In this document: in pieces, positions 14,469-40,817 of the stretch
Layout of the letters: each line of letters begins with the position of its first letter
Position numbering within the stretch: the first letter of the stretch is position 1
Notes under the pieces: model-generated
The model's input: only the letters and a program-made list of their open reading frames with translations
Databases searched by the model: none
Told to the model about the DNA's origin: nothing
Assembly: GCF_028330965.1 (NCBI RefSeq)
Contig: NZ_JAQMUB010000025.1
Span: forward strand, 1 to 64,000
Source: Oscillatoria sp. CS-180
GTDB lineage: Bacteria > Cyanobacteriota > Cyanobacteriia > Phormidesmidales > Phormidesmidaceae
Direction: 5' to 3'
Length of the DNA stretch: 64,000 nt
Program-made: the position numbers and the translations under genes

Positions 14469-14505
14469 ACTTAGTCATAATCCTGGTTGAATTGACAATA
14501 CCCCG

Positions 14506-18261: not shown

Positions 18262-18265
18262 TGCT

Positions 18266-23167: not shown

Positions 23168-25261
23168 CTAAGACGGTTGAATGAGCTGACGTAATTCCTG
23201 GAGTTGAGAGACGTCGCCGACCCAGTTCCACCCAGCTTCGTAGAGGTTACGCTTTTTGGTGACATCCCAATCGCCATCGAGCACGAGAGCCAGCTTGGGC
23301 AAAGGGCGCAGGCTAAAAGACCACTCATCGCGGTTCCGGGGATCATTACCGTGGGACCAAGCTAGCCGCAACGCCCGACACCGACCCGCCAATTCTTTGG
23401 TTTTGTGCCCTTCATTGCCATCCTGCGACGACTGCACCTTGATTAGCCACTGCCTATTCCGCGACACCCCCTCCATCCACGTCTCCAGCGGTCGCCCATT
23501 CCAAATTGTATTAATCACATCCGTCTGCCAGGATGGGCAAATTCTAGCCTTGAGTTCTTCTGAATAGTCTGAGGTGTCTTCTGTAAATTGGAGATAGCAA
23601 ATATCTCCCAAAAAATGCTCAACCATGATGTAAAAACCATTGAGGTCAGAGCTAATAACCCGCATCGATTTGTTGCCCTGATACTTCTGAATCACAGTTT
23701 CAGAGGGATAAATAATGCGATTCTCATCCCGAAAGCCCTGAATAATACATTGGGCAATGGTGCGCCAGCTCAAAGTGCGAAACTCTTCGGCGCTGAGGGT
23801 ACGTCTGCGGCTAGAGTCTGACCATTGTTCGCTGATATCGCGACCTTGCAGCAGAAAGGCAACCGTCTGTGCATGTCCTCCATAGGGAGCATGGGGTCGA
23901 ACTCGGTGTCCTGATCGCTCAAAATTAGCCTTGAAGCGCTTTTGAATATCCTCAGCACTGTTGAGTCCTGAGATGTAGAGCAGCATCTCAAACACCCAAT
24001 TTTGCTGATGCTCAGAGATTTCTAGGCGTTCCTCACTCAGAACTTTAGCGTGAAGCTGTAGTTGCTCGTTGAGAGCATCTTCATCCTCTAATACACTCAA
24101 AAAATGGGCTCTCACAAACGCCTCTTTAGCCGACACCAAAGCTGGATCAGCTAAGTCATCCAATGCTTCTTCAATCCCAAAAGTTTGATCAAACCGTTCA
24201 AATGAGCGATAGACAGAACTGGCAAAACTGCTGTCTTGAATGTGCTCTCGCAGGTCTTGCATACAAAGCTGAAAGTCAGGATTGAATTTGGCTCGATAAA
24301 CTGTTGCGTCGGCAATTGGGTTAGAAAAGGTCTGTAGCGTGCAAAAGGTTTTGGCATTTTTGCCTTTTCGCACATAAATCTGAGCCAACTGTTCAAACAC
24401 TTGAACGAGCCGCTCCAATCCCATTGCAGCCAAAGCGGGTTGGGTTGCCAGTCGGTTGACATGCACTCGGTCATTGGTCGTTTCTACCAAAGTTGATACA
24501 AAATCTTCCAGGCTGGGCGCACGGTCATGAGCAACCCTTTGGACTAACCGATAGAACAAATAAACGTGCAAAAGCCCAATGCGATAACGACTACGGGTGT
24601 TCTGTACTTGAGGTAAGTTTTCGAAGGCTGTATGCCGAATTCCTTGAAGTATCTGCCACTGAGAGATAAAGCAGGGCTTGATGTCAGCTTCCAATACCTC
24701 AGCCAGCAAGTCAGTGGTTGTCGGATCGTGGTTGCCTTCTACGGAGTGGTCTAATTCAAAGACTGGCGCATACCCAACCGGAAAAATAATTGAAATATCG
24801 AAAGCTTCAATCATCGCCCAGCCAATGCCAGGATCCCAGCCATTAAGCTGAATGGGGACATCTTCCTCACGAGTCTGGTCTCTCGGTAACTCATGCGAGG
24901 TTCTGTAAACGGCAGGTTGCGAACCTGATGGCAGCGCTTCAAAAATACAGTTAATCGTCAGAATTTCTTGGGAGACAGCCAGCTTTTGTTGCACGGATTC
25001 TTCCCAGGTTCGCCAAAACTTTTTCTTCGATGATCTCGTTTCGCTCCAGTGAGTGGAGTAAATGATCGCTTGAACTTCTCGACCTTCTCGAACGACAATA
25101 TCTGGCTGAATATAAGTGTCAGGAATAATGATATTTTTGGCTCGTTTTGATGGGTGCAAATAGTTTTTGCCAACCGTGCTGCCTAGCTCATAGCCCAAAT
25201 GAAGGAGTGATGCGGCCAAAATCTGCTCATAACTGTCACCTGTTCGATCTTGCTTGGGCAT
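23168..25261 (-). CDS. Large two-domain nuclease-like protein
   Basis: This 697-residue protein opens with SYEQILAASLLHLGYELG and reaches QPDIVVREGREVQAIIYST near residue 55. The spacing of the Asp, the EVQ strand and following basic residues resembles a PD-(D/E)XK core with Glu in an E-x-Q arrangement. The middle is helical with no motif I know. The C-terminus ends in LPKLALVLDGDW and EAGWNWVGDV, matching the end of the broken nuclease at 12,133-13,883. It stands between the helicase/TGT operon and the dpdA operon, on the same strand. Inference: the restriction arm of a modification system. It could also be a stand-alone restriction enzyme. Confidence 0.55.
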   Translation of the reverse strand: MPKQDRTGDSYEQILAASLLHLGYELGSTVGKNYLHPSKRAKNIIIPDTYIQPDIVVREGREVQAIIYSTHWSETRSSKKKFWRTWEESVQQKLAVSQEILTINCIFEALPSGSQPAVYRTSHELPRDQTREEDVPIQLNGWDPGIGWAMIEAFDISIIFPVGYAPVFELDHSVEGNHDPTTTDLLAEVLEADIKPCFISQWQILQGIRHTAFENLPQVQNTRSRYRIGLLHVYLFYRLVQRVAHDRAPSLEDFVSTLVETTNDRVHVNRLATQPALAAMGLERLVQVFEQLAQIYVRKGKNAKTFCTLQTFSNPIADATVYRAKFNPDFQLCMQDLREHIQDSSFASSVYRSFERFDQTFGIEEALDDLADPALVSAKEAFVRAHFLSVLEDEDALNEQLQLHAKVLSEERLEISEHQQNWVFEMLLYISGLNSAEDIQKRFKANFERSGHRVRPHAPYGGHAQTVAFLLQGRDISEQWSDSSRRRTLSAEEFRTLSWRTIAQCIIQGFRDENRIIYPSETVIQKYQGNKSMRVISSDLNGFYIMVEHFLGDICYLQFTEDTSDYSEELKARICPSWQTDVINTIWNGRPLETWMEGVSRNRQWLIKVQSSQDGNEGHKTKELAGRCRALRLAWSHGNDPRNRDEWSFSLRPLPKLALVLDGDWDVTKKRNLYEAGWNWVGDVSQLQELRQLIQPS

Positions 25262-25397
25262 GTTGGGCTAGCGTGCTGGCGTCTACGGATTGCGGCTATA
25301 GGTTCTTTTGTCTCAATTAAGTAAGCCCTCCTGCAACACGACATAACGCTAGGATCAGCAAATAGTATTCTTCCTTACACAGGCAACAATTTTATTC

Positions 25398-26057
25398 ATG
25401 GTTGCTTCCCCCGTCACCATCCCCATCAAACAGCTTCAGCTAGCCCCCGGCAGTCTAGCCACCCTTTCTGACGTTACCTGGGACGCTTACGAAGCCATCC
25501 TCACCGAACTAGGGGCCGAGCGACGGGTGCCCCGCATCACCTACAGCAACGGCATCCTGGAACTTATGTCTCCCCTGCCCCGACACGAACGCCCCCACAA
25601 GCTCATTGGCTACATCGTCACCACCCTCCTAGATGCCGCCGAACAAGACTGGGAAGACTTCGGCTCCACCACCTTCAAACGCCCAGACAAGCAAGCTGGC
25701 TTAGAACCCGACACCTGCTTTTACATCCAAAACGCCGCTCAGGTCCGTGACTGTCAGCGCATGGATTTGAGCACCTATCCCCCTCCTGATCTGGCCATCG
25801 AATCGGACGTCACCTCCAAAACCACCCTGGAAGCCTACCAGCGCATCGGCATCCCCGAACTCTGGATTTACGAAGCGGGAGCACTCACGATTTATCGGCT
25901 CAATCAAGACGAGTACGTACAATCAGAGACCAGTCCCCTCTTTCCTGACTATGCAATTCCCTCCCTGATCCCACAACTGATTGAGGAAGCCTTTGCCGTC
26001 GGCAGCAGCCAAATGTTACGCAACCTGCGATCGCGTCTCACTCAAGGGCAACTCTAA
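25398..26057 (+). CDS. Uma2-family endonuclease-fold protein (DUF820)
   Basis: This 219-residue protein belongs to the Uma2 family, abundant in cyanobacteria and built on a PD-(D/E)XK fold. The family features are visible: ELMSPLPRHERPHKLIG, the acidic pair GLEPDTCFYIQ, the core strand PPDLAIESDVTS and GIPELWIYEAG. Function is unknown for most members. It is transcribed towards dpdA and their stop codons overlap by four bases. It is probably unrelated to the modification genes. Confidence 0.87.
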   Translation: MVASPVTIPIKQLQLAPGSLATLSDVTWDAYEAILTELGAERRVPRITYSNGILELMSPLPRHERPHKLIGYIVTTLLDAAEQDWEDFGSTTFKRPDKQAGLEPDTCFYIQNAAQVRDCQRMDLSTYPPPDLAIESDVTSKTTLEAYQRIGIPELWIYEAGALTIYRLNQDEYVQSETSPLFPDYAIPSLIPQLIEEAFAVGSSQMLRNLRSRLTQGQL

Positions 26058-28141
26058 CGTTTAGACAGCTTTGCCAAGAGCTCCTGAAAGCGCTTATAAA
26101 AGGCCCGTGTGTTGTGGAACCCCCGTCTGCGGTTGCGATCGTTCCCACGGAAAATGACCACTTCGACTCCAACCTCATTACAAATCACGCAGTCGCACTG
26201 CTGCCAAGGGCGATCCTCCAGCAGCTCTCGGTACATACGCTCATGCTTTACCCGTCGCTTTGCCTGCTCTGCCGGGTCAGCCTTGCCATCCTTCGGTAGC
26301 TCCAGCAGCTCGTCATAGGCTAAAAGCGCTTCTAGGGTTTCTTCCAGACCCAACCCTGCCTGATCGAACGCTCGCAGTGCCTTGAGAGCATTTTGCTCTA
26401 GTCCTTTGAGCGTGTCGCGATCAGCGACACCTGCTTCAATGAGCCGCTTCACCCGTACTCCATGGCCATCAACGGGTGGAATGCGGACAGCAGTGTACAT
26501 TCTGCTGGAGGAGGTGTGGTAGTTAGCTCCCGAACCTAGCCAAGCTCGTCGGAGGGGACTGGCCGAATCAAAGCTGGTGATGCCCAAATGCCGAAAAACT
26601 GGAATCGCGTTGATGCGGGCCACTCCAAATAGGTGTAGTCGGGTATTCGGCGTCAGATGAGGACGCACCTCCTTCATGATTTCGATAATTTCTTTGCTCT
26701 GGGCTCTGGCTAACCCACCCAGCGCGATGTAGTCGTACCCTACTCGAATATTCTCTTTGACGGATTCGGCGTAGGTTTCGGGGCTCCAGCCTTGAGCGAC
26801 ACCGATAGGAGTGAAGGAATAACCTGCTGTCTGGTGCTTCTCGAAGAACTCCCGCGCATTCTTCATCGTGAGTTCGTACCGCTTTTCGCGAATGCCTGGG
26901 ATAGCAAAGGGGCCGACGATCAGGTGGTCGATACTGACCCCGTAGTCGAATCCCAGGTTTTCGTAGTAATCCAGAATTTCAACCGTGTTGTAGGGTGGTT
27001 TCTCTTCTTTGACATAGCCGAATGCGCCGCAGTCACCCATGACTGGTCCTGAGTATCGAATAAAGTCGTGGATGCCGATCGCTTCAATCCGTGCCCTTTT
27101 CTTCTTGCTGCTGTCTACGACGACCTTCGACACTAGGATGCCGTCGTAGTTGGGGGTGTTGTAAATCTGGTGGGCGTAGACCTCATCATGGTGGGGATCA
27201 CGTCCCGGAGTGAGACGGTCATTCAGAAAATCGTAGTTGGGGTCTACATGGTCATCCCATTCGGGAATGTAGTACTGCATGCCCAAATCAATGTTGGCGG
27301 CTGGGGGCACATCGGGAATGGGCAAAAATTCGTCTTTGCCTGGGCGATCGCCCCCGGTCTTTCCACTCGCCTTGGAGGGTTTTGGCGTTGTGGGTACTTG
27401 ATCCAGTAAAGTCGTGAAGGCAAGCTGCTGAGGTGGAGGCTCAATATCGCCCTCAATGACTTGTCGAAAGATTCCGGGATTGTCTTGAACCTTGTTCAGC
27501 AGTTCCGGTTCTGCGGCAACGGCTTCGGCGAACTGCTTGAAGAGGAACCCTTTGAGCCCAACCAATCCGTATCGGTAACGCTTCGCGTCTTGATTAGAAA
27601 GCGGCAGCACAAAGGTCTTGGCTGCCAGGTCAGGAATCTTTTTGGCTGAACCGCCAGAGGCTAAGAAGACGAGGGTCTGATCAGGTCGGGTTTGAATGGG
27701 GAGCTGGAGCGATCGCAGGTAGTTATCCCCCAGCAAAAAAAAGACCAGGTCTGCTAGCTCTAGCCGTTGCTCTACCGCATCGTGAATGCCCAACTGCTGC
27801 CCCCACAGGTCCACCTCACCCGCTTTCATGCCGTTGAAGGTGACTTCGTAGGGGACAACTTTTTGGTGCTCTGCAATCAGCCCATAACCAGCCGAGAGAA
27901 TATCGACATCTAAGACTTCTGGCCCTAAGGTATCCCTTAACGCCTGTACTCCCTCCATTAGCCGCAGATGTTGTTGCCCAGTGTACAGCTCTCCAGCGGG
28001 GCAGGCGAAAACGGCCAGCTCAGCCTCGCGATCGCGCAACCGTTTCACGTCGCGAAAGTCTTCGAGGGTCAGTTGGTTCTCAGGTTTGGAGCGTTTTTCC
28101 CCAGTGCAGGACGTAATGACTAGGACACGGGGGTCGGGCAT
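26054..28141 (-). CDS. dpdA: DpdA, DNA-guanine transglycosylase with N-terminal DUF6884-like domain
   Basis: This 695-residue protein is built of two parts. Residues 1 to about 150 ([37 protein letters not shown]) match the DUF6884/YaaA-like domain fused to some DpdA proteins. From about 290 onward comes a TGT barrel: [22 protein letters not shown] and [14 protein letters not shown], with the Asp of FDSAS as expected nucleophile. A zinc site C-D-C-x2-C with a His 22 residues later ([10 protein letters not shown] ... GFHNT) closes the protein. DpdA exchanges guanine in DNA for preQ0. It overlaps queC by 22 bases as the last gene of the preQ0 operon, which places substrate synthesis and use together. 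No QueF follows, consistent with preQ0 as the substrate. Confidence 0.9.
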
Positions 28142-28842
28142 TCGGTCTCCTGAGCGTGTAGATTTCGGCCTATCAACGTTGCCAGATCGGGGCGTCCAGC
28201 GTCAATCAGGGCCTTGTCACGAATGCGGCAAGAGTCGCAGAGTCCACAGGGTTCTTCCCCTCCCTGGTAGCAGGACCAGGTTTCCTCAATGGGAACGCCG
28301 AGTCGCAGGGCTCGCCGCACGATCGCTTCCTTGGTATCTCTTACCAGCGGAGCCACCAGGATTGGTGCATTACCCTCCAGACCTGCCTTGGAGGACAAGC
28401 TGGCGAGTTGCTGAAACGCTTCGAGATACTCGGGACGGCAATCGGGATAGCCGGAGTAGTCAACGGCGTTGATCCCTAGGTAGATGGCTTGAGCTGACTT
28501 AGCTTCAGCTAGGGATAGGGCAAGAGAAATGAAGACCGTGTTGCGTCCCGGCACATAGGTTGAGGGAATCTGATCGGGCTGAACACCTGCTTGGGGCAAC
28601 GTCTCATCCAGATCCGTCAAAGAAGACCCGCCCCACTGAGCCAGGTTCACATCCAGAACGTAGTGTTCTTGGATGCCGAGGTGAGCGGCGACTTTTTGGG
28701 CTGCTTCGAGCTCGCGCTCATGGCGTTGTCCATAGCGAAACGAGAGCGCAACGGGGGCGTAGTCGTCGGCAATCGCCTGGGCTGCAGCAGTAGCAGAATC
28801 CAGACCTCCGGATAGGAGAACGATGGCTTTGGGTTGGGGCAT
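28120..28842 (-). CDS. queC: QueC, 7-cyano-7-deazaguanine synthase
   Basis: This 240-residue ATP-dependent enzyme converts 7-carboxy-7-deazaguanine to preQ0. The PP-loop [11 protein letters not shown] is at the N-terminus, [17 protein letters not shown] is the family substrate segment, and the zinc-binding cluster [15 protein letters not shown] is near the C-terminus. Length is normal. It starts two bases after queE ends and overlaps dpdA, so the four genes form one transcript. Confidence 0.95.
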
Positions 28843-28844
28843 GG

Positions 28845-29492
28845 CTATTGGACTCCTAGAAATTTATGAGTTTGCAGGCTAACGCGCCATTCGGAATGCT
28901 TCAAGACGTAACTGAACACAATTTCCTGACTGCCGGGAGTTTCCCATTCGGGCTGGAGCAGCTTGACTGCGGTTGGGGGAACCTGGGCGGCTTGCTGTTC
29001 GGCCCATTCCAGATCGGACTCGTCAGCGATGACGACTTTGAGTTCGCTGACGTGGGGATAAATACTGGGGTGAGGTGGTTTGAAGCGTTTGGGAGAGCAG
29101 GTCACCCAGTCAAAGTTGCCGCTTAAGGGGTGAGCACCCGACGTTTCCAGGTGAACCTGTAGTCCCTCGACCTGGAGCTGCTGAGTGAGCACTGTCAGGT
29201 CATGCATGAGCGGTTCCCCTCCGGTAATCACGACGATTTGAGGATTCGCCGCTTGGGCTGCAGCCACCAACTCATCAATCTCGCGTTGGGGTTGTCGCTT
29301 CGGATTCCAGGAATGTTTGGTGTCGCACCAGGGACAGCCGACATCGCAACCAGCCAGCCGGATAAAAAAGGCGTTGGTGCCCGTCCATGAGCCTTCGCCT
29401 TGTATGGAGTGGAACATCTCAACGATGGGCAGGGGTGAGGATGCTTTGCTCGATAGGGCTGCTGGGGATTGGGTGGCAGTTGGGCTAGTCAT
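28845..29492 (-). CDS. queE: QueE, 7-carboxy-7-deazaguanine synthase
   Basis: This 215-residue radical-SAM enzyme makes the 7-deazaguanine ring. The cluster motif C-x3-C-x2-C is in [15 protein letters not shown], preceded by the FHSIQGEG substrate loop and followed by [13 protein letters not shown]. The start MTSPTATQ is chosen because it lies one base after the queD stop. A longer frame exists but overlaps queD by over 100 bases. Confidence 0.92.
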
Positions 29493-29493
29493 C

Positions 29494-29886
29494 TTAGTCG
29501 TCGTCCTCGTACTCGACCCAGGAGTTCGGTGTCTCAGAAACGCAAACTTTGAGCTTGACGCCTTCCGGTACTTCTTTCTTCGTTCTCTCGTGGATGTACT
29601 GGGCAATCATCTCTGCGGTGGTTTCGTAGCCTTCGGGCAGCACCTCATTGAGGACGCAGTGGTCGAGCCCTCCTTTGAGCAGGTCGCGTTTGGCCCAGCG
29701 CAGGGTGCGGAAGTCGCTCACCATAACGGAGTGGGGACAGTATTGGGAGGAGTGGAGCTGGCTGGAGGTGGCTTCAATGCGCACTCGGTAGGTATGGCCG
29801 TGCATGCGTCCGCAGGGGCCATCGTAGTCGCGGATGAAGTGCGCGGCGTCAAAGGTAAATTCGGTTGAGAGCTTCCACTTAGGCAT
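29494..29886 (-). CDS. queD: QueD, 6-carboxytetrahydropterin synthase
   Basis: This 130-residue enzyme converts dihydroneopterin triphosphate to carboxytetrahydropterin. The zinc ligands appear in FDAAHFIRDYDG and MHGHTYRV, the catalytic Cys in the intervening PCGRM, and LDHCVLNEV and the TTAEMIAQYI segment complete the family pattern. It is the first gene of queD-queE-queC-dpdA. FolE is not in the cluster and must be supplied from elsewhere. The bases before the ATG show no clear Shine-Dalgarno sequence. Confidence 0.94.
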   Translation of the reverse strand: MPKWKLSTEFTFDAAHFIRDYDGPCGRMHGHTYRVRIEATSSQLHSSQYCPHSVMVSDFRTLRWAKRDLLKGGLDHCVLNEVLPEGYETTAEMIAQYIHERTKKEVPEGVKLKVCVSETPNSWVEYEDDD

Positions 29887-30044
29887 GGGGAGATTTAAGG
29901 ATTAAAAGGCAAAAACGCTACATGTAGAATTCAGAAGCAGGGAACGGACTAGATATAGAGCCTAGTTTTAGCACAACTTGCCTATTAGATCATTGTAGTT
30001 TGTTTGAACTATAAAAGTGTTTTTGAAGTTATCGTGTCACCTCG

Positions 30045-30054
30045 TAGAGTGCGG
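30045..30054 (+). repeat. Direct repeat TAGAGTGCGG, left copy
   Basis: The 10-mer TAGAGTGCGG occurs here, 36 bases before the small helical gene, and again at 32,981-32,990 in the last codons of the NACHT gene. Each is preceded by CCT two bases upstream. The two copies frame the AT-rich pair almost exactly. It may be a recombination scar or chance. Confidence 0.5.
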
Positions 30055-30090
30055 TTATAAAGGTACTGAGAAGTTGCTGAGCAGATACCC

Positions 30091-30525
30091 ATGGAGCCTT
30101 TGACATTAGCTGCGACTGCGATCGCCGCCACAATCATGACTAAGTTTTGGGAGAAAACAGGGGAGAAGCTCAGCGAAGAATTGTTTGAGAAAAGCGAAGA
30201 GTTTTACAAGTCACTGCAACAGAAGACTCCTGAAACCGCTTCAGCAATTGAGAAGTTGCCTCAAAATTCTTCGGCATATGGCCAGGCGGTACTGGAAGTT
30301 AGAGCGATCGCTGATAGTGATGTCGAACTTGTTGAAGAGATGGAGTCACTTGCGGCAGTTGCTCAGAATGAGCCTAATGAGCAGTTACAGCGAATAATTG
30401 GAGAGATTCTTGACACCCTGCAAAACCAGCAACCCACAGTACAGAACATCGGTAAAGTGGCTGACAAGATTGGGTTGCTTGTCCAAGGAGGGACAGTCAA
30501 TATTCAGAATTTCTCTGTTGAATAA
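30091..30525 (+). CDS. Small helical protein paired with NACHT gene
   Basis: This 144-residue protein begins with a hydrophobic helix (MEPLTLAATAIAATIMTKFW), continues with amphipathic helices rich in Glu and Lys, and ends in a short beta segment, GGTVNIQNFSVE. The NACHT protein encoded 29 bases downstream carries SQVNIKNLSIGKD close to its own N-terminus. Paired short motifs at the C-terminus of a helical effector and the N-terminus of an adjacent NLR-like protein are the layout of bacterial amyloid-signalling (BASS/Bell) pairs. That role is inference; I did not match a named motif. Base composition is AT-rich, like its partner. Confidence 0.55.
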   Translation: MEPLTLAATAIAATIMTKFWEKTGEKLSEELFEKSEEFYKSLQQKTPETASAIEKLPQNSSAYGQAVLEVRAIADSDVELVEEMESLAAVAQNEPNEQLQRIIGEILDTLQNQQPTVQNIGKVADKIGLLVQGGTVNIQNFSVE

Positions 30526-30554
30526 AGGTAGCTTGCTGGGGAAAAAGCTTGAAA

Positions 30555-33002
30555 ATGAATCATAACCAGGACAGAGATCCAAGAAAGATTGGAGTTTATG
30601 CATTAAACAGCCAGGTAAATATCAAAAATCTTTCGATTGGTAAAGATAGCAAGAAAGAACTTCGTAGAAGGGTTTCTTTACTTACAAAAGTTGACAGCGA
30701 AATTACTGGCAGGCTGGAGCAATCACTCCACAACCAAGTACTTATGAAGGTTTCGAGCGAATATCGAGCTCAAGATGTAAAAAGGATATGGGATGTCGAA
30801 GTTAAGGTTAGGGGTCGATCTGAGACCAAGAATATTGACGATAAGGACATCATAGATATTCTTGATTGGACATCTATTGCTGGTAGATTGCTCATACTTG
30901 GAAAAATAGGATCAGGAAAGACAACCAGTCTTCTAAAAGTGGCAAAAAAGTTGGTTGAGAGAGCCTCAATAGATCAAAACGAACCTTTGCCCATTATTCT
31001 AAGCCTTTCATCTTGGAAGGATGAAGACCTTTTATACACTTGGCTGCAAACCGAGACAAGACTCAAGTATGGAATTAGAAAGAAACAATTCTCCAAATGG
31101 CTTCAAGGGGACATGTTGTTCCCCTTACTAGATGGACTAGACGAATTAGAACCAACAGTTCAGGAAAAATGCATCTTAGCCATAAATGAATTTCTTTCAA
31201 GTGAAAAGCAAACGACAAGCCTTTTAGTTTGCTGTAGGTCAGAAGATTATAAAAATCATAGAAAAACATCTCTTAATCTGAATGGGGCTGTCTTTCTTAA
31301 ACCTCTCAGCAGCAATCAGATATCCGAGTACTTAAGAAAGGTAGACCTTGAAACTCTATGGATTAGCATTAGTGATTCTCCAAGCATATTGAATTTAATA
31401 AACTCTCCGCTGTTTTTAAGCATGATGGTTCTCGCTTACAAACAAATATCTCTTGATGAATGGCGAAATTGCAATACACCTGCAAGATGTAAAGAGTATT
31501 TGTTAAGCGTTTACATCAACTATATGCTATCTAGAAGGGGTAAAAGCAGAGCGTTTGCCAATGAATCAATTGTAGATCCCTCAAGAAATCATCGTTGGCT
31601 TATTTTTTTGGCTCAGAAATTGAGCAGAAGTAGTAGAAGTATTTTTTCAATAGAACAACTGCAACCCTCTTGGCTTGAAACTGCAAAACAAAGACTTGTT
31701 TATCGCTTGATTGTTGCATTAACTGGTGGAATGTCTCTTGCCTTGATCATTATTCCGATTACTGGAGTAGTATGGGGTTGTCTAATATCAAACTTGCTTT
31801 GGTTATGTTTGACGCCATACGAGATAACTTCAGAACCGAACTTGAATATTTCTTGGAAAGTACTGTTTAAAAACACAAGATCAAATTTCCAGTCTTATCT
31901 AAAAATAAATATACTTTTATGCACGATCTTCGTCTTCCTGAATAGTCTTTTTGGGACTCAGAAAGAGTTTTGGATTGCGTTAATTACCGGAGCGCTGGGG
32001 GGCATGCTCATCGGAACCACCCTCACGATTTTAATAGGGGCAATACCTAGTTTAATTGCAGGAGTTTTTTCTTCCTTCCAATATTCGGAACTAGGCTCCG
32101 AAATATCTCCAATAAAAGTAGCAATCAAAACCACTCGTGGTGCAGGAATTCTAGGTATTGGGTTCTGTGTACTTTTCGGTGTACTAACTGCTTTGTTTCT
32201 CGGTTCTACTTTCGGTATGCTTTTGGGTTTAATATTTGGAACCGTAATTTTCCTGATTGGTTGCAGATCCTTGATTCAAATCTTAGGACTTCGTCTAGTT
32301 CTCTGGAGATATGGCTTCATCCCCTGGAACTATATGGAATTTTTAACCGTTTCAACAGAAAGAATCATCTTGCAGAGAACTGGAAACAGTTTTAGTTTTA
32401 TTCATTCTTCTTTGCAGGAACATCTAGCCAACAATCCTCTTTTTCCTGGCAAGCAAGATGTCTTTTCAAATCAACATCGCAACCAAAAGCGCAGACTTAG
32501 ATGGCTTTTGCCCATTTTCTTCCTTTACTTTTCTAGAACTTTTATCTTGGAAGCTAGATATGTGGCCTCGGTAGACTATATGAATCCATCATACCAAATA
32601 AACGATAGAATTCTTGTTGATAAGCTAACTTATAGCATCTTCAACCCTAAGCGTGGAGATGTTATTTTGTTTGATAGCAAAAGAGCTTACTATGAAAATA
32701 TTAGAGAGCAAAGCTTTTATTTTCGGAGGATTATTGGACTTCCTGGAGAAAAAGTAGAGATCAAAGATGGAAATCTTTATGTTGATGGTCGTTTTGTAGA
32801 GGAGTCCTATTTAATTAATGCCAGTACTGGCTCTTCCATTAGTGAAAGCGAGACTATAATCCCAAAGTCAGAATATCTTGTGCTAGGAGATGATCGGCAA
32901 CAGGGAAAAGCCATTTATTTAGAATTGGTTCCCAAAAAAAATATTTTAGGGAAAGGTGTCTTTCGAATGTGGCCGCCTTATAGAGTGCGGAGGCTTTGGT
33001 AA
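30555..33002 (+). CDS. NACHT NTPase fused to degenerate signal peptidase I domain
   Basis: This protein has 815 residues. A short VNIKNLSIG segment lies near residue 20. The NACHT domain has Walker A LILGKIGSGKTTSLLK near residue 115, Walker B FPLLDGLDEL near 195 and a VCCRSEDYK sensor. The region from about 385 to 580 holds several transmembrane helices. From about 650 there is a signal-peptidase-I fold: NDRILVDKLTYSIFNPKRG, RRIIGLPGEKVEIKDG, LGDDRQQGKA and NILGKGVFRMWPP. The catalytic Ser of the S-M-x-P motif is Tyr (DYMNPSY) and the catalytic Lys before R-x-x-GLPG is Arg. Peptidase activity is therefore unlikely. The start is ATG 30,555. AT-rich codon use differs sharply from the next gene. 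Confidence 0.85.
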   Translation: MNHNQDRDPRKIGVYALNSQVNIKNLSIGKDSKKELRRRVSLLTKVDSEITGRLEQSLHNQVLMKVSSEYRAQDVKRIWDVEVKVRGRSETKNIDDKDIIDILDWTSIAGRLLILGKIGSGKTTSLLKVAKKLVERASIDQNEPLPIILSLSSWKDEDLLYTWLQTETRLKYGIRKKQFSKWLQGDMLFPLLDGLDELEPTVQEKCILAINEFLSSEKQTTSLLVCCRSEDYKNHRKTSLNLNGAVFLKPLSSNQISEYLRKVDLETLWISISDSPSILNLINSPLFLSMMVLAYKQISLDEWRNCNTPARCKEYLLSVYINYMLSRRGKSRAFANESIVDPSRNHRWLIFLAQKLSRSSRSIFSIEQLQPSWLETAKQRLVYRLIVALTGGMSLALIIIPITGVVWGCLISNLLWLCLTPYEITSEPNLNISWKVLFKNTRSNFQSYLKINILLCTIFVFLNSLFGTQKEFWIALITGALGGMLIGTTLTILIGAIPSLIAGVFSSFQYSELGSEISPIKVAIKTTRGAGILGIGFCVLFGVLTALFLGSTFGMLLGLIFGTVIFLIGCRSLIQILGLRLVLWRYGFIPWNYMEFLTVSTERIILQRTGNSFSFIHSSLQEHLANNPLFPGKQDVFSNQHRNQKRRLRWLLPIFFLYFSRTFILEARYVASVDYMNPSYQINDRILVDKLTYSIFNPKRGDVILFDSKRAYYENIREQSFYFRRIIGLPGEKVEIKDGNLYVDGRFVEESYLINASTGSSISESETIIPKSEYLVLGDDRQQGKAIYLELVPKKNILGKGVFRMWPPYRVRRLW

Positions 33003-33012
33003 GTACTAGGTA

Positions 33013-34887
33013 ATGTCCAACATTTCCCAAATATACAGCAGCTACGGCGAAGCCCTCGACTTCTCCCGCGACAAGTTCGACGACCTCTACACCAGTCGCG
33101 CCCATAACGCCAGCGACTTCTATCACACCTTCTTCCACCACCTCATCTGCCCCCTCCACCCCCACTTCACCAACCCCGCCTCCCTCCGCACCCTCCATCG
33201 CCATATCGAGCGCTTCTTCGGCACCCGCCAACTCGACTTCGTTGCCATCGATGGCACCTGCGGCAAAGACCCTTTCCAAGACTTCATTGTCTTCTCCGCC
33301 TGCGCCTATGGGGCCAAAGGCCAAATCAACCTCGACGACGACCCACCCACCGTCCGCTACCAAAAGTGGTCCCTGGACAAAGACGTCTCCATGGTTACCT
33401 ACATCCCCGTACCCTTTTCCGAGTTCGCCGACGTCGTAGACCAAGACCGTCCCGAAACCTTCCTCGTCTCCGACAACGAGCGGGTAGACCTCTCCAGCAT
33501 CGATACCAAAATGATGGAGCTGGCCGAAATCTACCTCGCCTACAACGTCGCCACCTCCTCTGCCCTCGAAGCGCCCAAGGTCATCCTCCTCGATCGTTCC
33601 CCCTCCAGCATCCTAGCGAGCGTGGCCGTGCAGCCCGAAGCCATCCCCATGCTCAACTTCCCCTTCGATCGCCGCCACCTCACCGTCGATGACGCCACTG
33701 TTGCCCTGGCCCACCCTTTCAACCCCGTCCTCGGCATCCCCACTACCAAAAAGTTTAGCCAGTACATGGCCCTCATCGCCGAATTGCACCACCAGCGCAC
33801 TCGGTCCCTCAACCTTGATGAGTTTGCCGCTCGCCAACACCTCACCACCGACGACCTGCAAGGGGCTATTCGCTACCTCACCAAAGAACGCCGCCGAGGG
33901 CAAGATCCCCTCCCGCCCTTCGCCCGGCTCGAACCTCACCAGGGCAGCACCACCCTCACCACTGACGTCAACTGCGTTGCCTCCTGGGACTACTGTGTGG
34001 CTCTCTTCGAACACATCTGCCGTCGCCTTTTCGTCGAAAAAGACCAGCAAGCCCTCGTCTACGAAGCTCCCGACGAATACGGTGTCGTCCGCCAGCGCTG
34101 GATGTCTCCCAACGACGTCGGCTTCCTGATTGCCGTCGGCATCCGCGCCCTGATCGAAGAATGCTGGCAGCGCAAAATCCTCCTCACCGGCATCATCAAA
34201 GACTCCGCTTCTCGCTACCTCACCCGCAACTACTTGGGCGTCATGAAGCAGCTCGGTCAACAGGGCTACCCTGACCTCGCCACCCTGGACGTGCGCCAGC
34301 TCCCCTGGACTGATCGCATCTTCCTCGAACTCCTCCCCCTCGCCGACGAAACCCTCACCGCTCCCTGGTCCTCCATCGAGTTCGACTCCACCTACATGAC
34401 CCTCCACGCTCGCGCCAGTGCGGACGGCAACCCCGAGATATCTGGCGTGCAGGGGTTCATCGTGGCACCAGAGCGGTTGTTTGCGCGTTCCCTGGCCCAA
34501 TTTTTCTTAAAGCGAGATAAAGCCACCCCCCTCATGGGGCATGTTGTGTTTATAGACCGGCTCATCTACCCCGAGTGGGACCAGCCAGGGCTTGACCAGG
34601 TCACCATCCAGACGAATGCCTTGGGGCGTATCCAGCCCTTCTGCTATCGCACCAAAGATGAAACCAATCTGGCCCAGTTCATTAACATGTACCTACTCAA
34701 CGTCCTCACCCGTAACCACTTCCCCGAGGTGATCGGCTACCCCGATCCCCTCCATAAGGCCGATTGGGGAGCCAAGACCGTCGGCAAACGCATCCAGGGC
34801 ATCATCCGCTCCTCCGCCTACTCCTTCCGTTCCCAGCCGTTGAGCAAAACCTTCCGCAGTATCCGCGATTCCTTCCACCGCTCCTGA
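33013..34887 (+). CDS. Large NurA-like nuclease, second NurA/HerA pair
   Basis: This 624-residue protein has FVAIDGTCGKDPFQDFIVF near residue 75, matching the NurA signature with DGT in place of DGS. Further acidic strands follow at APKVILLDRSP and HVVFIDRLIYP. It is about 200 residues longer than the NurA at 5,656. The extra sequence includes a winged-helix-like region around residue 260 (LDEFAARQHLTTDDLQGAI). It lies 12 bases before a HerA gene. Codon use is GC-rich and unlike the NACHT gene 10 bases upstream, so these are separate acquisitions. Confidence 0.75.
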   Translation: MSNISQIYSSYGEALDFSRDKFDDLYTSRAHNASDFYHTFFHHLICPLHPHFTNPASLRTLHRHIERFFGTRQLDFVAIDGTCGKDPFQDFIVFSACAYGAKGQINLDDDPPTVRYQKWSLDKDVSMVTYIPVPFSEFADVVDQDRPETFLVSDNERVDLSSIDTKMMELAEIYLAYNVATSSALEAPKVILLDRSPSSILASVAVQPEAIPMLNFPFDRRHLTVDDATVALAHPFNPVLGIPTTKKFSQYMALIAELHHQRTRSLNLDEFAARQHLTTDDLQGAIRYLTKERRRGQDPLPPFARLEPHQGSTTLTTDVNCVASWDYCVALFEHICRRLFVEKDQQALVYEAPDEYGVVRQRWMSPNDVGFLIAVGIRALIEECWQRKILLTGIIKDSASRYLTRNYLGVMKQLGQQGYPDLATLDVRQLPWTDRIFLELLPLADETLTAPWSSIEFDSTYMTLHARASADGNPEISGVQGFIVAPERLFARSLAQFFLKRDKATPLMGHVVFIDRLIYPEWDQPGLDQVTIQTNALGRIQPFCYRTKDETNLAQFINMYLLNVLTRNHFPEVIGYPDPLHKADWGAKTVGKRIQGIIRSSAYSFRSQPLSKTFRSIRDSFHRS

Positions 34888-34899
34888 CCGAGGTGACCC

Positions 34900-36804
34900 A
34901 TGTTCGTAAGCGACCTAAGCGGCATTCTCATGAAAATTGAGGAAAACGAGATCACCCGCTACCGCTACGAACTGTGGTTCGACTACACCCGCAAAGCGAT
35001 GAACACCATCGCTGAAGGAGCCATGCTCGCGGTGCCCAACTTCGCCAGCGACCAGCGTGAGACCCGCTACAGCATCCTCGAAGTCACCGGCATCCTACCC
35101 ATGCACTACGCCCTCGGCACCGACACCGGCGGCTACCCCGGCTTCATCACCGAGGCCGCCCGCAACGCCGGACAAGACTGGATCACTCAAGACACCCTCT
35201 CCACCGAAGACACCACCAAAATTCGCTGCATCGCCATCCCCACCAACCTGGAAATTGTCGAGCAAGCCTTTTCCCCTAACGGCACGGGTCCCCAGATTCA
35301 GGAAGAAAGCAACCTGCCCATGGTCGGCCATGAGGTTCACCTGCTCAACACCGACATGACCGAGCAAGTCGCCAACCTCTCCCTCGACCTGGAGCAAGAC
35401 ACCCTGATCCACATTGGTTCCCTCGTCCGCGACGAAAACGTCCGAGTCCATCTACGGGTCGAGGAACTCATCAAAGTCCACTTCGGTATCTTCGGCTTCA
35501 CCGGGGCCGGTAAGTCAAACCTGCTGAGCACCCTGGTGCGCAAGCTACTCTCTGAGGTCAAAACTGAGCCGGTCAAGATCGTCATCTTCGACCTAATGAG
35601 TGAGTACACTGGGCTGCTGCTAGATCAGCTCGTGGAGCTAGACGAAGGCTTCATCGTCAACATCGGGGCGCAGACGACCCCCGAATCCGTCATCACTTAC
35701 TACAGCGAACTGAATCGGTCCAACGCTGAGCAAAAACAAAACCTCAAAGAAGCCACCATCGACTTCGTCAACTCCACCGTCCTCCCCAAGGCCCTTAAAC
35801 GCCGACAGCCCGACCTGCACCGACCGGCTGCCATCTTTCTCAAACAACGCAAGATGCGGTTCTGGCAGCAGAGAACAGTCGTGAGCGATGCTATTAAAAC
35901 TGCCAGAGACCAGTTCAAAGGCAATATGGGTGGCTGCGGTCGAGACGTCTACAAGTTTCTGAAGGATTTAGATAAACGCCACGGCAGTAAAGGGATTGAT
36001 GCTGCGATCGTCGAAACTATTGAGCAAGAAGTGGAGGATTTCATCGACGATTACAACGAAAACCCAGCCAATAAAAAAGCGAAGAAATCCATCACCTCCA
36101 CGGCTCAAACTAACTTAGACGCAGTAGTTAGCGTCCTCACGTCTCAAGCTCAACAATCGAGAGTCGATATCCCTGCCAACGTCACGGTCTCGATGCCCCA
36201 AATCGTTGAATGGCTGAACGACGAAACCCAAAGCAGCCTGATCATCGTTCAAGCTCACAACCCTGACGAACTGCGGGACTTTGCTGCCAAGCTCTCCTAT
36301 GTCGCCTACGAGTCCCGTCGCCGCAGTGGCCGCATCGTGCCCCTGGTTTCCTTCATCTTTGACGAAGCCGACGAATTCATCCCCGGTAAGAGCAACAGCG
36401 ACAGCCAGAAGAGTTCTAAGGCCGCCGTCATGACCCTCGCCCGCCGAGGCCGGAAGTTTGGCTTGGGCATCGGCATCTCCACCCAGCGCATCGCCAACCT
36501 CGACGTCAACACCCTGGCCCAGCCCCACACCTACTTCGTGTCGAAGCTACCCAGAGAGTACGACCGACGGGCGATCGCGGAAGCCTTCGGCATCTCTGAA
36601 GACATGTTCCGCCAAACTTTCAAGTTCAAGAAAGGCGACTGGTTGCTGGCCAGCTACGATGCAACTGGTTTAGAGGCCCTTCCTATTCCTATCCATACAG
36701 AAGATGCGAATCAGAAAATCTTGCAATTTGTAGAAGCTCAATCATCCCTTTCCGCAGCGAAGCAAGAGATGACTGAGAAAAAATCTCGTAATAGTCTTGT
36801 TTAG
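34900..36804 (+). CDS. herA: HerA-type DNA translocase, second pair
   Basis: This 634-residue protein has Walker A GIFGFTGAGKSNLLS near residue 200, Walker B SFIFDEADEFI near residue 485 and the family segment ARRGRKFGLGIGISTQR. The N-terminus is a HAS-barrel-like domain. The insertion between the two Walker strands is helical and Lys-rich. It starts 12 bases after the NurA-like gene, so the two should act as one resection machine. It shares family but little evident sequence with the HerA at 6,886. Confidence 0.9.
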   Translation: MFVSDLSGILMKIEENEITRYRYELWFDYTRKAMNTIAEGAMLAVPNFASDQRETRYSILEVTGILPMHYALGTDTGGYPGFITEAARNAGQDWITQDTLSTEDTTKIRCIAIPTNLEIVEQAFSPNGTGPQIQEESNLPMVGHEVHLLNTDMTEQVANLSLDLEQDTLIHIGSLVRDENVRVHLRVEELIKVHFGIFGFTGAGKSNLLSTLVRKLLSEVKTEPVKIVIFDLMSEYTGLLLDQLVELDEGFIVNIGAQTTPESVITYYSELNRSNAEQKQNLKEATIDFVNSTVLPKALKRRQPDLHRPAAIFLKQRKMRFWQQRTVVSDAIKTARDQFKGNMGGCGRDVYKFLKDLDKRHGSKGIDAAIVETIEQEVEDFIDDYNENPANKKAKKSITSTAQTNLDAVVSVLTSQAQQSRVDIPANVTVSMPQIVEWLNDETQSSLIIVQAHNPDELRDFAAKLSYVAYESRRRSGRIVPLVSFIFDEADEFIPGKSNSDSQKSSKAAVMTLARRGRKFGLGIGISTQRIANLDVNTLAQPHTYFVSKLPREYDRRAIAEAFGISEDMFRQTFKFKKGDWLLASYDATGLEALPIPIHTEDANQKILQFVEAQSSLSAAKQEMTEKKSRNSLV

Positions 36805-37103
36805 ACACGCGGAAAGTATTTCACCAGCATTTTCATCGACTCTCCAGGTTGACATCGAAGGGGACGTTCTGGAGTTGGGGCAGGCATAAAATCCGTCCAT
36901 TCAAAAATTTCAGCAAAGCCACAGACATGAAGCTGCTGCACGATCGCCTGAATAGCTGGGCGAGAGCCAATCACCAGAAGTTTGACAGGATCTCTGTCAG
37001 CCTTGGGATAATTTCCCAATTTCTGCCTGATTTCAACGCTGACCAAAACATCAGCATCGGCATCAGACGCTTCAGAACCCACGAAAGCAGTCGGAATTAG
37101 CAC
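36801..37103 (-). CDS. Conserved hypothetical, cyanobacterial
   Basis: This 100-residue protein contains a clear alpha/beta core (PVKLLVIGSRPAIQAIVQQL, then CGFAEIFEWTDFMPAP) and ends GESMKMLVKYFPRV. Similar short proteins with an LVIGSRPA core are common in cyanobacteria and have no assigned role. The start is a GTG at 37,103. It converges on herA with a four-base overlap of stop codons. Confidence 0.6.
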   Translation of the reverse strand: MLIPTAFVGSEASDADADVLVSVEIRQKLGNYPKADRDPVKLLVIGSRPAIQAIVQQLHVCGFAEIFEWTDFMPAPTPERPLRCQPGESMKMLVKYFPRV

Positions 37104-37125
37104 ACCAGCATCCTCAGAGACATCA

Positions 37126-37177
37126 CAGCAAAACGAGTCACATGTGACAACGTTAGCATATATGACTCGTTTTGCTG
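37126..37177. promoter_or_regulatory. Inverted-repeat operator candidate before XRE gene
   Basis: Perfect 15-base arms CAGCAAAACGAGTCA (37,126-37,140) and TGACTCGTTTTGCTG (37,163-37,177) enclose 22 bases. A 12-base palindrome GTCACATGTGAC (37,137-37,148) overlaps the left arm. The structure lies between divergent genes, 24 bases before the XRE start. An autoregulatory operator is the likeliest reading. No T-run follows, so a terminator is unlikely. Confidence 0.6.
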
Positions 37178-37201
37178 CTAAACCTCTGAAAAGATGAGGT
37201 T

Positions 37202-37435
37202 ATGGGCAAAGCAGGCGACATTCTCAAACAAGTACTGGAGAAATACGACATTACCCAGTACAGATTTGCTGCCACGATGGGAGTTGATCGCACCAGCGTC
37301 TACCGTTGGTGTAGCGGCAAGATCGACCCTACGGGTGACACCATCTTAGAAATTGTGCGGGTACTAAAATCGATGGATCCAGACGCAGCTTCCGAATTTG
37401 TTAACCAATATCTAGGACATGAACTAGAAGAGTAG
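37202..37435 (+). CDS. XRE-family transcription regulator
   Basis: This 77-residue protein consists of one Cro/C1-type helix-turn-helix: QYRFAATMGVDRTSVYRWCSG with the following DTILEIVRVLKSM helix. It is short and has no partner domain. As the last gene before the tRNA scar, it may control element functions or the divergent gene across the inverted repeat. A ribosome site (AAAGATGAGG) precedes the ATG. Confidence 0.85.
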   Translation: MGKAGDILKQVLEKYDITQYRFAATMGVDRTSVYRWCSGKIDPTGDTILEIVRVLKSMDPDAASEFVNQYLGHELEE

Positions 37436-37563
37436 TCCCCTGGATCCTTCGAAGTAATCTTGGCTTGATTGTTCAGCAACTTTACTGCCGATCATCAAGC
37501 TGGCTTCCAAGTCGTCTGAGCCCAGCTTGACGGATTTGGTTGGATCCAACTCAATTGCCCCAA

Positions 37564-37628
37564 TACCCCAATATAATTTACAAAAATCAAGAAAATAAGT
37601 TTTTGGGGGTGAAGCTTTTATTGGGGTA
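37564..37628. repeat. Inverted repeat near attachment scar
   Basis: Ten-base arms TACCCCAATA (37,564-37,573) and TATTGGGGTA (37,619-37,628) are perfect complements with 45 AT-rich bases between them. The site is about 60 bases inside the island end. It could be a recombinase or excisionase arm site, or a weak terminator. Confidence 0.4.
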
Positions 37629-37686
37629 AGTTTGGGATAAATTGAAGAGGCACTACGCTGAAAGCCTTGAAAAGTAAGGGTTTATA

Positions 37687-37733
37687 GAGGTCTGCAAAAC
37701 CTCCATTCCCCAGTTCGAATCTGGGTGCCGCCT
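37687..37733 (+). other. 3' half of tRNA-Cys(GCA), attachment-site scar
   Basis: The anticodon arm pairs GAGGT with ACCTC around the loop CTGCAAA, giving anticodon GCA. The T arm pairs CCCAG with CTGGG around TTCGAAT. The 3' acceptor strand TGCCGCC plus discriminator T follows without an encoded CCA. The matching GGCGGCA 5' strand and D arm are absent upstream, so this is not a working tRNA gene. Such 3' duplicates form when an element integrates within a tRNA gene and replaces its 3' end. Confidence 0.82.
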
Positions 37734-38263
37734 TCAGAGATGATTAAGGGGTTCCTTAGTGGTGCAATCAGCCACAAAAATAACAGGCTTATCCTTTTAC
37801 CTGAATTTGTGCAATAGGCATCGTCATGTCGGTCTTAGTGCTCTGTGGCTAAGTCTATGACACGCCTTTAGATTGTGCGATTTGGCTCAAAGGGCTGTCT
37901 TATCAGGCCGAGGCAACTGTAAACGTGAATTCCTTAGATGGAAAGCGATCTGTTTAAGGAACTTTTGTGAACTTACTGTCAACTGCTTCTACAGGCGTAT
38001 GTAGATATAGGAGCAACCTGATAACTTAAAGGCAATTTGTTCGACAGTTTGTTGCCAAAGCTTTGTGTGCTGTCTAATATTCCGTTTAAGTCTCTTATTA
38101 GTTAAGACCATCCTCGCTGTTTTGGTTAACTTTAGTTATCACCACAGCAAAAGTTGCGGTGGATAATGAAAGTAACAAAACCAAGACGCTGTTTGGTGAT
38201 GTGAGATTTTCTGTGGAATCACGGGAATTCTGCAAGCGTGTCCTTCCTAGTTAATTAATTTCT
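37734..38263. other. Intergenic region before UDP-glucuronate decarboxylase
   Basis: There is no convincing gene here. The stretch is AT-rich with short T-runs and no long open frame. It must hold the promoter for the sugar-nucleotide genes. I could not single out -35/-10 boxes with confidence. Confidence 0.5.
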
Positions 38264-39226
38264 ATGAGAATTTTAGTAACTGGTGGTGCTGGGTTTATTG
38301 GCTCTCACCTGATTGATCGCCTTATGCATGCTGGTCACGATGTTATCTGTGTAGATAATTTCTTCACAGGTCACAAGCGTAATATTCAGCACTGGTTTGG
38401 CAATCCTAACTTTGAGCTGATTCGCCACGACATTACCGAACCTATTAAGCTTGAAGTCGACCAGATTTATCACTTAGCGTGTCCGGCATCTCCTGTCCAT
38501 TACCAGTACAACCCTGTCAAAACCATCAAGACTAACGTGATGGGGACGCTCTATATGCTGGGCTTAGCAAAGCGCATCAAGGCTAGAATTCTGCTGGCAT
38601 CCACTTCCGAAGTCTACGGTGATCCTGAAGTTCACCCCCAGTCGGAGGACTATCGTGGCAATGTTAATCCTATTGGGATCCGCAGCTGCTATGACGAAGG
38701 CAAGCGAGTGGCTGAAACGCTTGCGTTTGATTATCACCGCCAAAATGGTGTGGATATTCGAGTGGCACGGATCTTTAACACCTATGGTCCCCGCATGTTA
38801 GAGAATGATGGGCGAGTCGTGAGCAATTTTGTTGGGCAGGCCCTGAAAGATATCCCACTGACAGTTTATGGTGATGGTTCTCAGACACGTAGTTTTTGCT
38901 ATGTTTCTGATTTGGTTGAAGGGCTGATGCGCCTTATGAATGGCGACTTTATTGGACCAGTCAATCTGGGTAACCCCGACGAGTATACGATTCTTGAGTT
39001 GGCTCAAACCATTCAGAGTATGGTGAATCCAGATGCTGACGTTAAGTTTGAAGCCTTGCCACAAGATGACCCTAAGCGGCGTAAGCCAGATATTACGAGG
39101 GCCAAAACCTACTTGGATTGGGAACCATCAATTCCTTTGGAGACGGGTCTACAGAAGACTATCGATGATTTCAAGACTCGCTTACAAGCAGAAAAACGGT
39201 TATCCCTCGAAACAACGCTTTCGTAG
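38264..39226 (+). CDS. UDP-glucuronate decarboxylase (UXS type)
   Basis: This 320-residue short-chain dehydrogenase converts UDP-glucuronate to UDP-xylose using bound NAD. The Rossmann motif [10 protein letters not shown] is at residue 8, the Ser-Tyr-Lys triad is in [12 protein letters not shown] and [11 protein letters not shown], and [10 protein letters not shown] is the family segment. Its substrate is made by the UDP-glucose dehydrogenase encoded next. Both feed polysaccharide synthesis. The gene is intact. Confidence 0.92.
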
Positions 39227-39431: not shown

Positions 39432-40817
39432 ATGCGTGTGTGTGTCATTGGAACTGGCTATGTTGGTCTTGTAACAGGTGTTTGCCTGTCCCATATAGGG
39501 CATGACGTCATCTGTGTTGACAACAACGAAGAGAAAGTTAAGTTAATGCAATCCGGCCAATCTCCTATCTACGAGCCGGGATTGTCAGAATTAATGAAAT
39601 CTTCCATGGAAGAGGGACGTCTCCAATTCACGAGCGATCTCTCCAGGGGGGTGAAGCACGGCGAAATTTTGTTCATTGCTGTAGGTACGCCACCTCTACC
39701 CACTGGAGAAAGCGACACTCGATATGTCGAAGCGGTCGCTCGGGGAATCGGTGCTCACCTCAACGGTGGCTACAAGGTTATCGTTAACAAATCTACGGTA
39801 CCCATTGGCTCGGGTGATTGGGTTCGTATGATTGTTATGGACGGTATCACCGAGCGCAAGCAATCCTTGGTAGGGGCAGGCGCTCCGGCAACTGACACCG
39901 AAGATATTAAGGCTGATTTTGATGTTGTGAGCAACCCTGAGTTTCTGCGCGAAGGTTCTGCTGTATACGACACCTTTAACCCTGACCGTATTGTTCTAGG
40001 TAGCAACAATCCTAAGGCGATCCAAAAGATGCAAGAACTTTACGCTCCGTTGGTAGAGCGTAAGTTTGCTGAAGATTCTTCTCTTCCTGAGGTCCCAGTT
40101 GTTGTCACTGATCTGAGCTCTGCTGAGATGGTGAAATATGCTTCAAACGCGTTCTTGGCAACCAAGATTAGCTTTATCAATGAAGTTGCTAATATTTGCG
40201 ATCGCGTCGGCGCAGATGTCACCCAAGTCGCTGCGGGTATTGGGCTAGACTCCCGCATTGGCAAAAAATTCCTACAGGCCGGTATTGGCTGGGGGGGGTC
40301 TTGTTTTCCGAAGGACGTTCTGGCGCTGCTGCATACGGCTAACGACTATGGCTACGAAGCTGAATTGCTGAAAGCAACTGTTAGCGTCAACAAGCACCAG
40401 CGGACGATCGCCCTTGAGAAACTTCAGCAGGAATTGAAAATTCTGAAAGGTAAGACGGTTGGTCTGCTGGGCCTCACCTTCAAGCCAGACACCGATGATA
40501 TGCGAGATGCTCCAGCACTGACTCTGATTGAGCAGCTGAATCGTCTGGGTGCCAAGGTCAAGGCTTACGACCCCATTGTTTCCCAGAGCGGCCTGCGCGA
40601 TGGACTATCAGGCGTCATCGTTGAAACAGATCCTGAGCGTTTAGCAGATGGTTGCGATGCGCTGGTGCTGGTCACAGATTGGAAACAGTTTGAGTCTCTC
40701 GATTACGGTAAGATGGCTAGCCTGATGAATACGGCAATCATGATTGATGGCCGTAACTTCCTCTCACAGCCTAAGTTGGAAGAGTTGGGATTCCGTTATT
40801 TAGGAATCGGTCGCTAA
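39432..40817 (+). CDS. ugd: UDP-glucose 6-dehydrogenase
   Basis: This 461-residue enzyme oxidises UDP-glucose to UDP-glucuronate with two NAD. The N-terminal GTGYVGLVTGVCLS binds NAD. The catalytic Cys lies in GGSCFPKDV and the substrate-binding NEVANICDRVGAD follows the family pattern. The C-terminal UDP-binding domain includes LTFKPDTDDMRDAPA. It is followed by a strong terminator. Together with the previous gene it forms a short UDP-xylose pathway. Confidence 0.95.
   Translation: MRVCVIGTGYVGLVTGVCLSHIGHDVICVDNNEEKVKLMQSGQSPIYEPGLSELMKSSMEEGRLQFTSDLSRGVKHGEILFIAVGTPPLPTGESDTRYVEAVARGIGAHLNGGYKVIVNKSTVPIGSGDWVRMIVMDGITERKQSLVGAGAPATDTEDIKADFDVVSNPEFLREGSAVYDTFNPDRIVLGSNNPKAIQKMQELYAPLVERKFAEDSSLPEVPVVVTDLSSAEMVKYASNAFLATKISFINEVANICDRVGADVTQVAAGIGLDSRIGKKFLQAGIGWGGSCFPKDVLALLHTANDYGYEAELLKATVSVNKHQRTIALEKLQQELKILKGKTVGLLGLTFKPDTDDMRDAPALTLIEQLNRLGAKVKAYDPIVSQSGLRDGLSGVIVETDPERLADGCDALVLVTDWKQFESLDYGKMASLMNTAIMIDGRNFLSQPKLEELGFRYLGIGR

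Follow-up and report, generated by a model that had tools for sequence, protein, structure and literature searches.

A displaced tRNA-Cys fragment in Oscillatoria sp. CS-180 as the likely right end of a tRNA-targeted genomic island

The 64,000-nucleotide stretch of Oscillatoria sp. CS-180 DNA analyzed here (the first 64 kb of contig C63; hereafter the window) contains a displaced 3′ part of tRNA-Cys(GCA) that we read, with a probability of roughly 95%, as the attR of an island targeted to a tRNA gene and inserted by a tyrosine integrase at the only tRNA-Cys gene detected in this genome. The fragment spans 37686..37734 on the forward strand, starting at the anticodon stem and ending one base beyond the tRNA, and is identical at 49 of 49 positions to the intact gene and its next base on another contig of the same genome (C9:67895-67943, E 1.3e-18). 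It comprises the anticodon arm, variable region, T arm and 3′ acceptor strand and lacks the D arm and the 5′ strand. The initial annotation had placed a tRNA-Cys(GCA) 3′ half at 37687-37733 and expected about the last 47 bases of an intact tRNA-Cys to match it; both statements hold, with the extent corrected to the 49 bp given above.

The intact tRNA-Cys(GCA) was detected on C9 by ARAGORN and by Rfam (C9:67871-67942, 66.4 bits), and a search of the genome with a tRNA-Cys query (E ≤ 0.001) returned two places in total, this gene and the window fragment. Since neither ARAGORN nor Rfam detects a tRNA in the window, the copy there is not an intact gene. That the window tRNA is only partial would also fit an origin independent of integration, through decay of a duplicated gene or as a split or intron-containing tRNA-Cys gene. 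We regard such an origin as exceedingly improbable, as an intact copy exists elsewhere in the genome, neither program reports a gene at the fragment, and fragments recur in other genomes with nearly the same start position in the tRNA and the same flanking repeats.

The fragment had further been described as lying where accessory gene content changes to core, which the distribution of the neighboring genes bears out. The DpdA protein encoded to its left has matches in 12 of 143 genomes, Oscillatoria sp. CS-180 included (six of these within a 59-genome set by our reading), while the UDP-glucose/GDP-mannose dehydrogenase encoded to its right (39432..40817, forward strand) has them in 57 of 59 genomes (E ≤ 0.001, paralogues included). 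The proposal that the fragment is the island's right end is supported by the intact tRNA-Cys, an integrase remnant, an empty site and repeats flanking both tRNA pieces. The right end can now be placed to within a few bases and the likely integrase clade named.

The intact tRNA-Cys gene and the integrase remnant behind it

To the left of the intact tRNA-Cys, C9 carries ORFs that we take to be nadC-like and DUF2237-like genes. On its other side, a tyrosine integrase ORF begins about 215 bp after the tRNA, of which a remnant is present (C9:68159-69058). The open part scores 22.1 bits against Pfam Phage_integrase, under the cut-off of 27.1, and its residues 1-297 are 96% identical to an intact 413-aa integrase that stands behind tRNA-Cys in another genome of the same genus (G005). 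The C9 gene carries an in-frame stop and a second lesion, which appears as a one-base gap in the DNA alignment and as a stop in the other search, and is then truncated by an insertion sequence (IS); no match to integrase residues beyond about 300 of the 413 was found in the genome. With its own integrase broken, the island is probably no longer self-mobile. Both an intact tRNA-Cys and an integrase had been predicted to the left of the window. Both were found, the integrase as a remnant; their position to the left is deduced from the empty site and the matching of IS ends, C9 and C63 being unjoined.

In a DNA alignment of C9 with G005, identity is 70.5% over the nearest 1.2 kb to the left of the tRNA and 72-84% in shorter pieces farther left, compared with 93.9% over the segment that starts 25 bp before the tRNA and includes the integrase. 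We read this jump in identity at the tRNA as a trace of horizontal transfer. Beyond the integrase, G005 carries other genes, and when window positions 1-38000 were compared with the two G005 stretches read, the tRNA copy was the sole match. G005 possesses the integrase behind its tRNA-Cys, yet no 3′ fragment was detected there at E ≤ 0.001. The tRNA of G005 (L054:4833-4905) and that of Oscillatoria sp. CS-180 (L003:9873-9944) differ at three sites in the 3′ part, two of which compensate each other in the T stem, and the third pairs with a change in the 5′ half; about 90 bases of element DNA just after the tRNA are identical between the two genomes.

CRISPR-associated transposons of cyanobacteria are known for homing to sites near tRNA genes, and the island might on these grounds be a Tn7-like or CRISPR-associated transposon inserted near such a gene instead of a tyrosine-integrase element. 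The chance of this appears minute: a tyrosine-integrase remnant lies behind the tRNA-Cys, a 49-bp copy of the tRNA 3′ part is unlike a short target-site duplication, and Pfam detects no TnsB/TniQ-type family in 23 island ORFs.

The empty site and the contig junction

An unoccupied locus is found in G012 (locus L045), which belongs to the same family and another genus. Within about 5 kb, it contains a DUF2237-like gene on the minus strand followed on the plus strand by tRNA-Cys, an epimerase gene and a dehydrogenase gene. Its tRNA matches C9 at 74 of 74 bp, and the epimerase and dehydrogenase genes are 78.5% and 76.7% identical in DNA to the right flank of the window, where an NAD-dependent epimerase (GDP_Man_Dehyd/Epimerase; 38264..39226, forward strand) corresponds to the first gene after tRNA-Cys in G012. 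Judged by gene order and sequence identity, G012 is the left flank of C9 set beside the right flank of the window, with tRNA-Cys between them. By our reading this arrangement occurs in one of the 59 genomes, many others being too fragmented to tell; in the five genomes of the same genus as Oscillatoria sp. CS-180 the two flanks lie on separate contigs or, in G005, 1.39 Mb apart.

The end of C9 and the start of C63 both lie inside an IS repeat, C9 terminating in the left-end type and the window opening with the right-end type (1..249). A direct overlap between the C9 end and the window was considered and rejected, as the two share no 20-mers besides the tRNA copy and are opposite ends of one IS family. 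Six left and five right ends of this IS were found in the genome. Exact 8-bp duplications pair C12 with C83, C22 with C60, C56 with C16 and C79 with C84 (four of the six left with four of the five right ends), and among the 30 possible pairs no others share at least six of eight bases. The left ends on C9 and C77 and the right end on C63 are unpaired, leaving C9 or C77 as the candidate left neighbor of the window. Each of the two shares three of eight duplication bases with C63, which is chance level. Since neither C9 nor C77 shares an 8-bp duplication with C63, the junction is not a simple IS insertion. This suggests an IS-mediated deletion or rearrangement at the C9/C63 junction, which perhaps also removed the C-terminal part of the integrase. 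From the IS ends and the empty site together we infer a direct link in the order C9-IS-C63, which we consider quite likely, the contigs being unjoined in the assembly. Both tRNA pieces would then have the same chromosomal orientation, as follows from this contig order and the empty site.

In our preferred reading, the attP of the incoming element would have carried a tRNA-Cys copy beginning near the anticodon stem and continuing to the 3′ end. Crossover, at an exact point that we infer to lie within this shared block, would have produced an intact tRNA-Cys at the left end (attL, on C9) and moved the 3′ copy to the other end of the island, next to the core gene originally located behind the tRNA.

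Repeats beside the tRNA pieces and the integrase clade

To the left of the fragment lies a tandem arm-type pair, TTGGGGTAA and TTGGGATAA (37621..37640, forward strand), the copies being 11 bp apart and 65 and 54 bp from the fragment. TTGGGGTAA occurs in exact form once in the 64-kb window (37621), its one-mismatch copy TTGGGATAA starts at 37632, and no other such pair is present in the window. On C9, three copies of TTGGGGTAA stand 105, 117 and 128 bp after the tRNA-Cys, and the same distances are found in G005. When up to one mismatch is allowed, the single motif has 17 matches in the window against a shuffle mean of 9.95, and one of 100 shuffles reached 17. This enrichment is mild; more conspicuous than the frequency of the single motif are its clustering next to the fragment and the fixed position of this cluster. 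No tandem repeats were found at score 50 in window positions 1-40000. A second arm-like pair, inverted, with one mismatch in each copy and 8 bp apart, lies at 37555..37571 on the reverse strand; no inverted copy is present within 250 bp of 11 further fragments from our collection, and its role is uncertain. Also adjoining attR is a 77-aa ORF (37202..37435, forward strand), which is helix-turn-helix-like by eye.

This collection comprised 12 tRNA-Cys 3′ fragments, window included, taken as all matches reaching the tRNA 3′ end. The tandem pair is present at -65/-66 and -54/-55 in five of the 12 (the window, G149, G158b, G144 and G159), the other four being within 1 bp of the place in the window, and is missing at seven (G158a, G164, G032, G016, G047, G054 and G002). 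A relative of the integrase is present in all five pair-bearing genomes and also in three of the seven pairless cases (G158, the genome of G158a, as well as G164 and G032); the fragments in G032 and G158a precede an integrase of the family. Of the 46 distinct pairs detected in 1.15 Mb of DNA, a set biased towards integrase loci, 41 have a tRNA-Cys piece within 450 bp, a zone making up about 4% of the bases, and five sit away from tRNA-Cys. In Scytonema NIES-4073, an arm-like repeat set (L139:3995-4015) lies 14.8 kb from tRNA-Cys without an adjoining tRNA-Cys piece. The position of the repeats at both island ends is consistent with putative arm sites: during insertion, the TTGGGGTAA-type repeats flanking the core on either side were probably the binding sites of the integrase. 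A tRNA-Cys tail with a tandem repeat at a fixed distance can further serve as a signature for some such island ends in fragmented cyanobacterial genomes.

The repeats also bear on whether fragment and C9 integrase belong to the same element. The fragment could be the end of a different or older tandem element in a composite island of several insertions. Tandem arrays at tRNA-Cys do occur, as in G158, where an intact tRNA and two 3′ fragments share one contig, and in G032, where an intact tRNA is followed by a fragment and then by an integrase of the family; in addition, the C9-C63 junction is unassembled. However, the window pair has the motif of the three copies that follow the C9 tRNA-Cys, its position matches that at fragments in four other genomes with the same integrase clade, and only a single fragment was found in the genome. 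We thus consider a composite origin unlikely and favor a single island inserted by the C9 integrase.

A scan of genome contigs for the integrase clade yielded 25 loci, 22 of them with a tRNA-Cys piece upstream (21 intact, one a fragment). The three loci without tRNA-Cys are L118, whose contig starts 190 bp before the match, and L119 and L120, which are N-terminally partial matches. The hosts include Leptolyngbya, Nostoc, Scytonema, Chlorogloeopsis, Calothrix, Amazonocrinis and Plectonema, and viral contigs gave one remote match of 21% identity with no tRNA-Cys. Among six more distant relatives examined out of many (46-49% identity), three have a tRNA-Phe just upstream, and in the other three the available sequence starts under 100 bp ahead of the match. 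At L065, L066 and L068, integrases with 47-49% identity to the clade adjoin tRNA-Phe, and L066 also has a similar repeat pair.

Both element ends lie on one contig in Nostoc desertorum (G149), spanning 70.7 kb. In Amazonocrinis nigriterrae (G158), 53.5 kb lie between fragments a and b, after a 66-kb stretch that starts at the intact tRNA. The T arm of this intact tRNA-Cys differs from that of both displaced fragments on the same contig (L126, L129, L132), as would be expected had the functional gene received a new 3′ half through an insertion. In Calothrix brevissima NIES-22, 36 bp located 27.8 kb before the intact gene (G154:C1:6359143-6359178) match the 5′ part of tRNA-Cys exactly; the usual fragments come from the other half.

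The cargo of these elements varies. The G158 element encodes DpdA, 54-57% identical to that of the window, together with DpdD, E, F, G, H and J (eight ORFs scanned), and the G149 element carries baseplate-J and eCIS-core genes (10 ORFs scanned). When 22 island proteins were compared with the tRNA-Cys element stretches, several of them partial, only DpdA matched at E ≤ 1e-10, in G158. We lean towards viewing the clade as a dedicated tRNA-Cys delivery vehicle with exchangeable cargo and a constant arrangement of arm sites: on the cargo side a tandem YTGGGGTAA-type pair, its copies 11 bp apart, is located 65-66 bp from the core, and the integrase side carries arrays of this motif. If this is true, the cargo would include Dpd-type DNA modification (our island and Amazonocrinis), contractile-injection-type genes (N. 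desertorum) and haemagglutinin-like proteins (G005, by eye), and comparison with the distant relatives that use tRNA-Phe, of which one has a similar motif, could reveal how the target tRNA of an integrase changes. Among the papers listed by literature searches, judged by titles or the beginnings of abstracts, none describes this integrase clade or its arm layout.

Island cargo and comparison with known systems

The island cargo in the window occupies 250..37620, with many ORFs of defence type. Scores against NCBIfam-type models identify a 7-deazaguanine DNA-modification-type module on the reverse strand (26054..29606). It consists of DpdA with a DUF6884 part (26054-28141; NF041059, 488.9 bits, cut-off 200), QueC (28120-28842; TIGR00364, 227.7 bits, cut-off 150.3) and a QueE-like radical SAM protein (28845-29606), for which the QueE models stay under cut-off (best 134.3 bits versus 200). 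On the same strand at 15937..21573, two Hel308-like helicases, both under NCBIfam cut-offs, flank a second TGT-family protein (18266-19222); homologues of this region in genome G013 are 74.7-79.2% identical. Further cargo includes a HerA-type ATPase (34900..36804, forward strand; PADLOC HerA 335.7 bits, Pfam DUF87 74.2 bits), a second HerA-type ATPase, a NACHT protein and a Uma2 protein. A Strawberry-notch-type helicase gene at 187-2868 is truncated by the IS end and may have a broken frame near 2.1-2.2 kb, and a UvrD-type helicase with a GajB-like N-terminal part, present as two short ORFs at 8874-9921, is apparently broken. Pfam revealed no conjugation or virion genes in 23 island ORFs, and PHROGs searches with 10 island ORFs either matched helicase, methyltransferase or unknown families or had no match.

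DpdA, a component of the canonical Dpd island, is recognized above its cut-off here. Since DpdB, D, E, G, H and J are not among the matches listed by PADLOC for 20 island ORFs (for the helicases, the best 25 of 42 and of 50 families), we do not file the island as a canonical Dpd island. Both helicases give weak DpdF-type scores (for one, NCBIfam DpdF 35.5 bits at a cut-off of 550), weak DpdC-type scores fall on the DUF6884 part of DpdA itself, and no other Dpd model is among the matches listed. The genes at 15937-29606 form the set QueE-QueC-DpdA(DUF6884-TGT)-Hel308-TGT-Hel308, which is without most canonical Dpd partners. A contig of G013 (L090) carries a homologous QueE-QueC-DpdA-helicase-TGT-helicase set together, 74.7-86.5% identical, with no tRNA-Cys or integrase within the 20 of 29 kb read. 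This set is possibly a distinct Dpd-like system, and its presence on the island suggests one route by which 7-deazaguanine DNA-modification genes travel among cyanobacteria.

For Dpd islands, PMC11888242 gives leuX of Salmonella enterica as a site of insertion and describes its one cyanobacterial Dpd island as being without any restriction genes. As far as this description goes, our island has in common with them DpdA and preQ0 genes on a horizontally moved island and, as in the cyanobacterial one, missing restriction genes. It differs in that no DpdB, D, E, G, H or J is among the matches listed for the scanned ORFs, and it adds two Hel308-like helicases and a second TGT-family protein. The Amazonocrinis tRNA-Cys element, which is of the same integrase clade, does carry DpdA, D, E, F, G, H and J.

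A small island of Synechococcus elongatus PCC 7942 is described in PMC3025956 as eight genes with the integrase-like Synpcc7942_1205, flanked by two tRNA-Cys. Both islands are cyanobacterial and combine tRNA-Cys, an integrase-like gene and accessory genes between; the cargo differs from ours. Islander catalogues genomic islands in tRNA genes (tDNAs), and the features given in PMC4383910, namely tyrosine-integrase insertion at a tRNA gene with the regenerated target and a displaced fragment at the ends, are shared by our island. It has an intact tRNA at one end, a displaced 3′ fragment at the other, an integrase remnant between and an empty site in one genome. By that account nothing differs in principle, apart from the broken integrase of our island and the placement of its two ends on separate contigs. 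The mechanism is the textbook one, and what is new is a well-documented further case with an integrase remnant, likely docking sites and an empty site.
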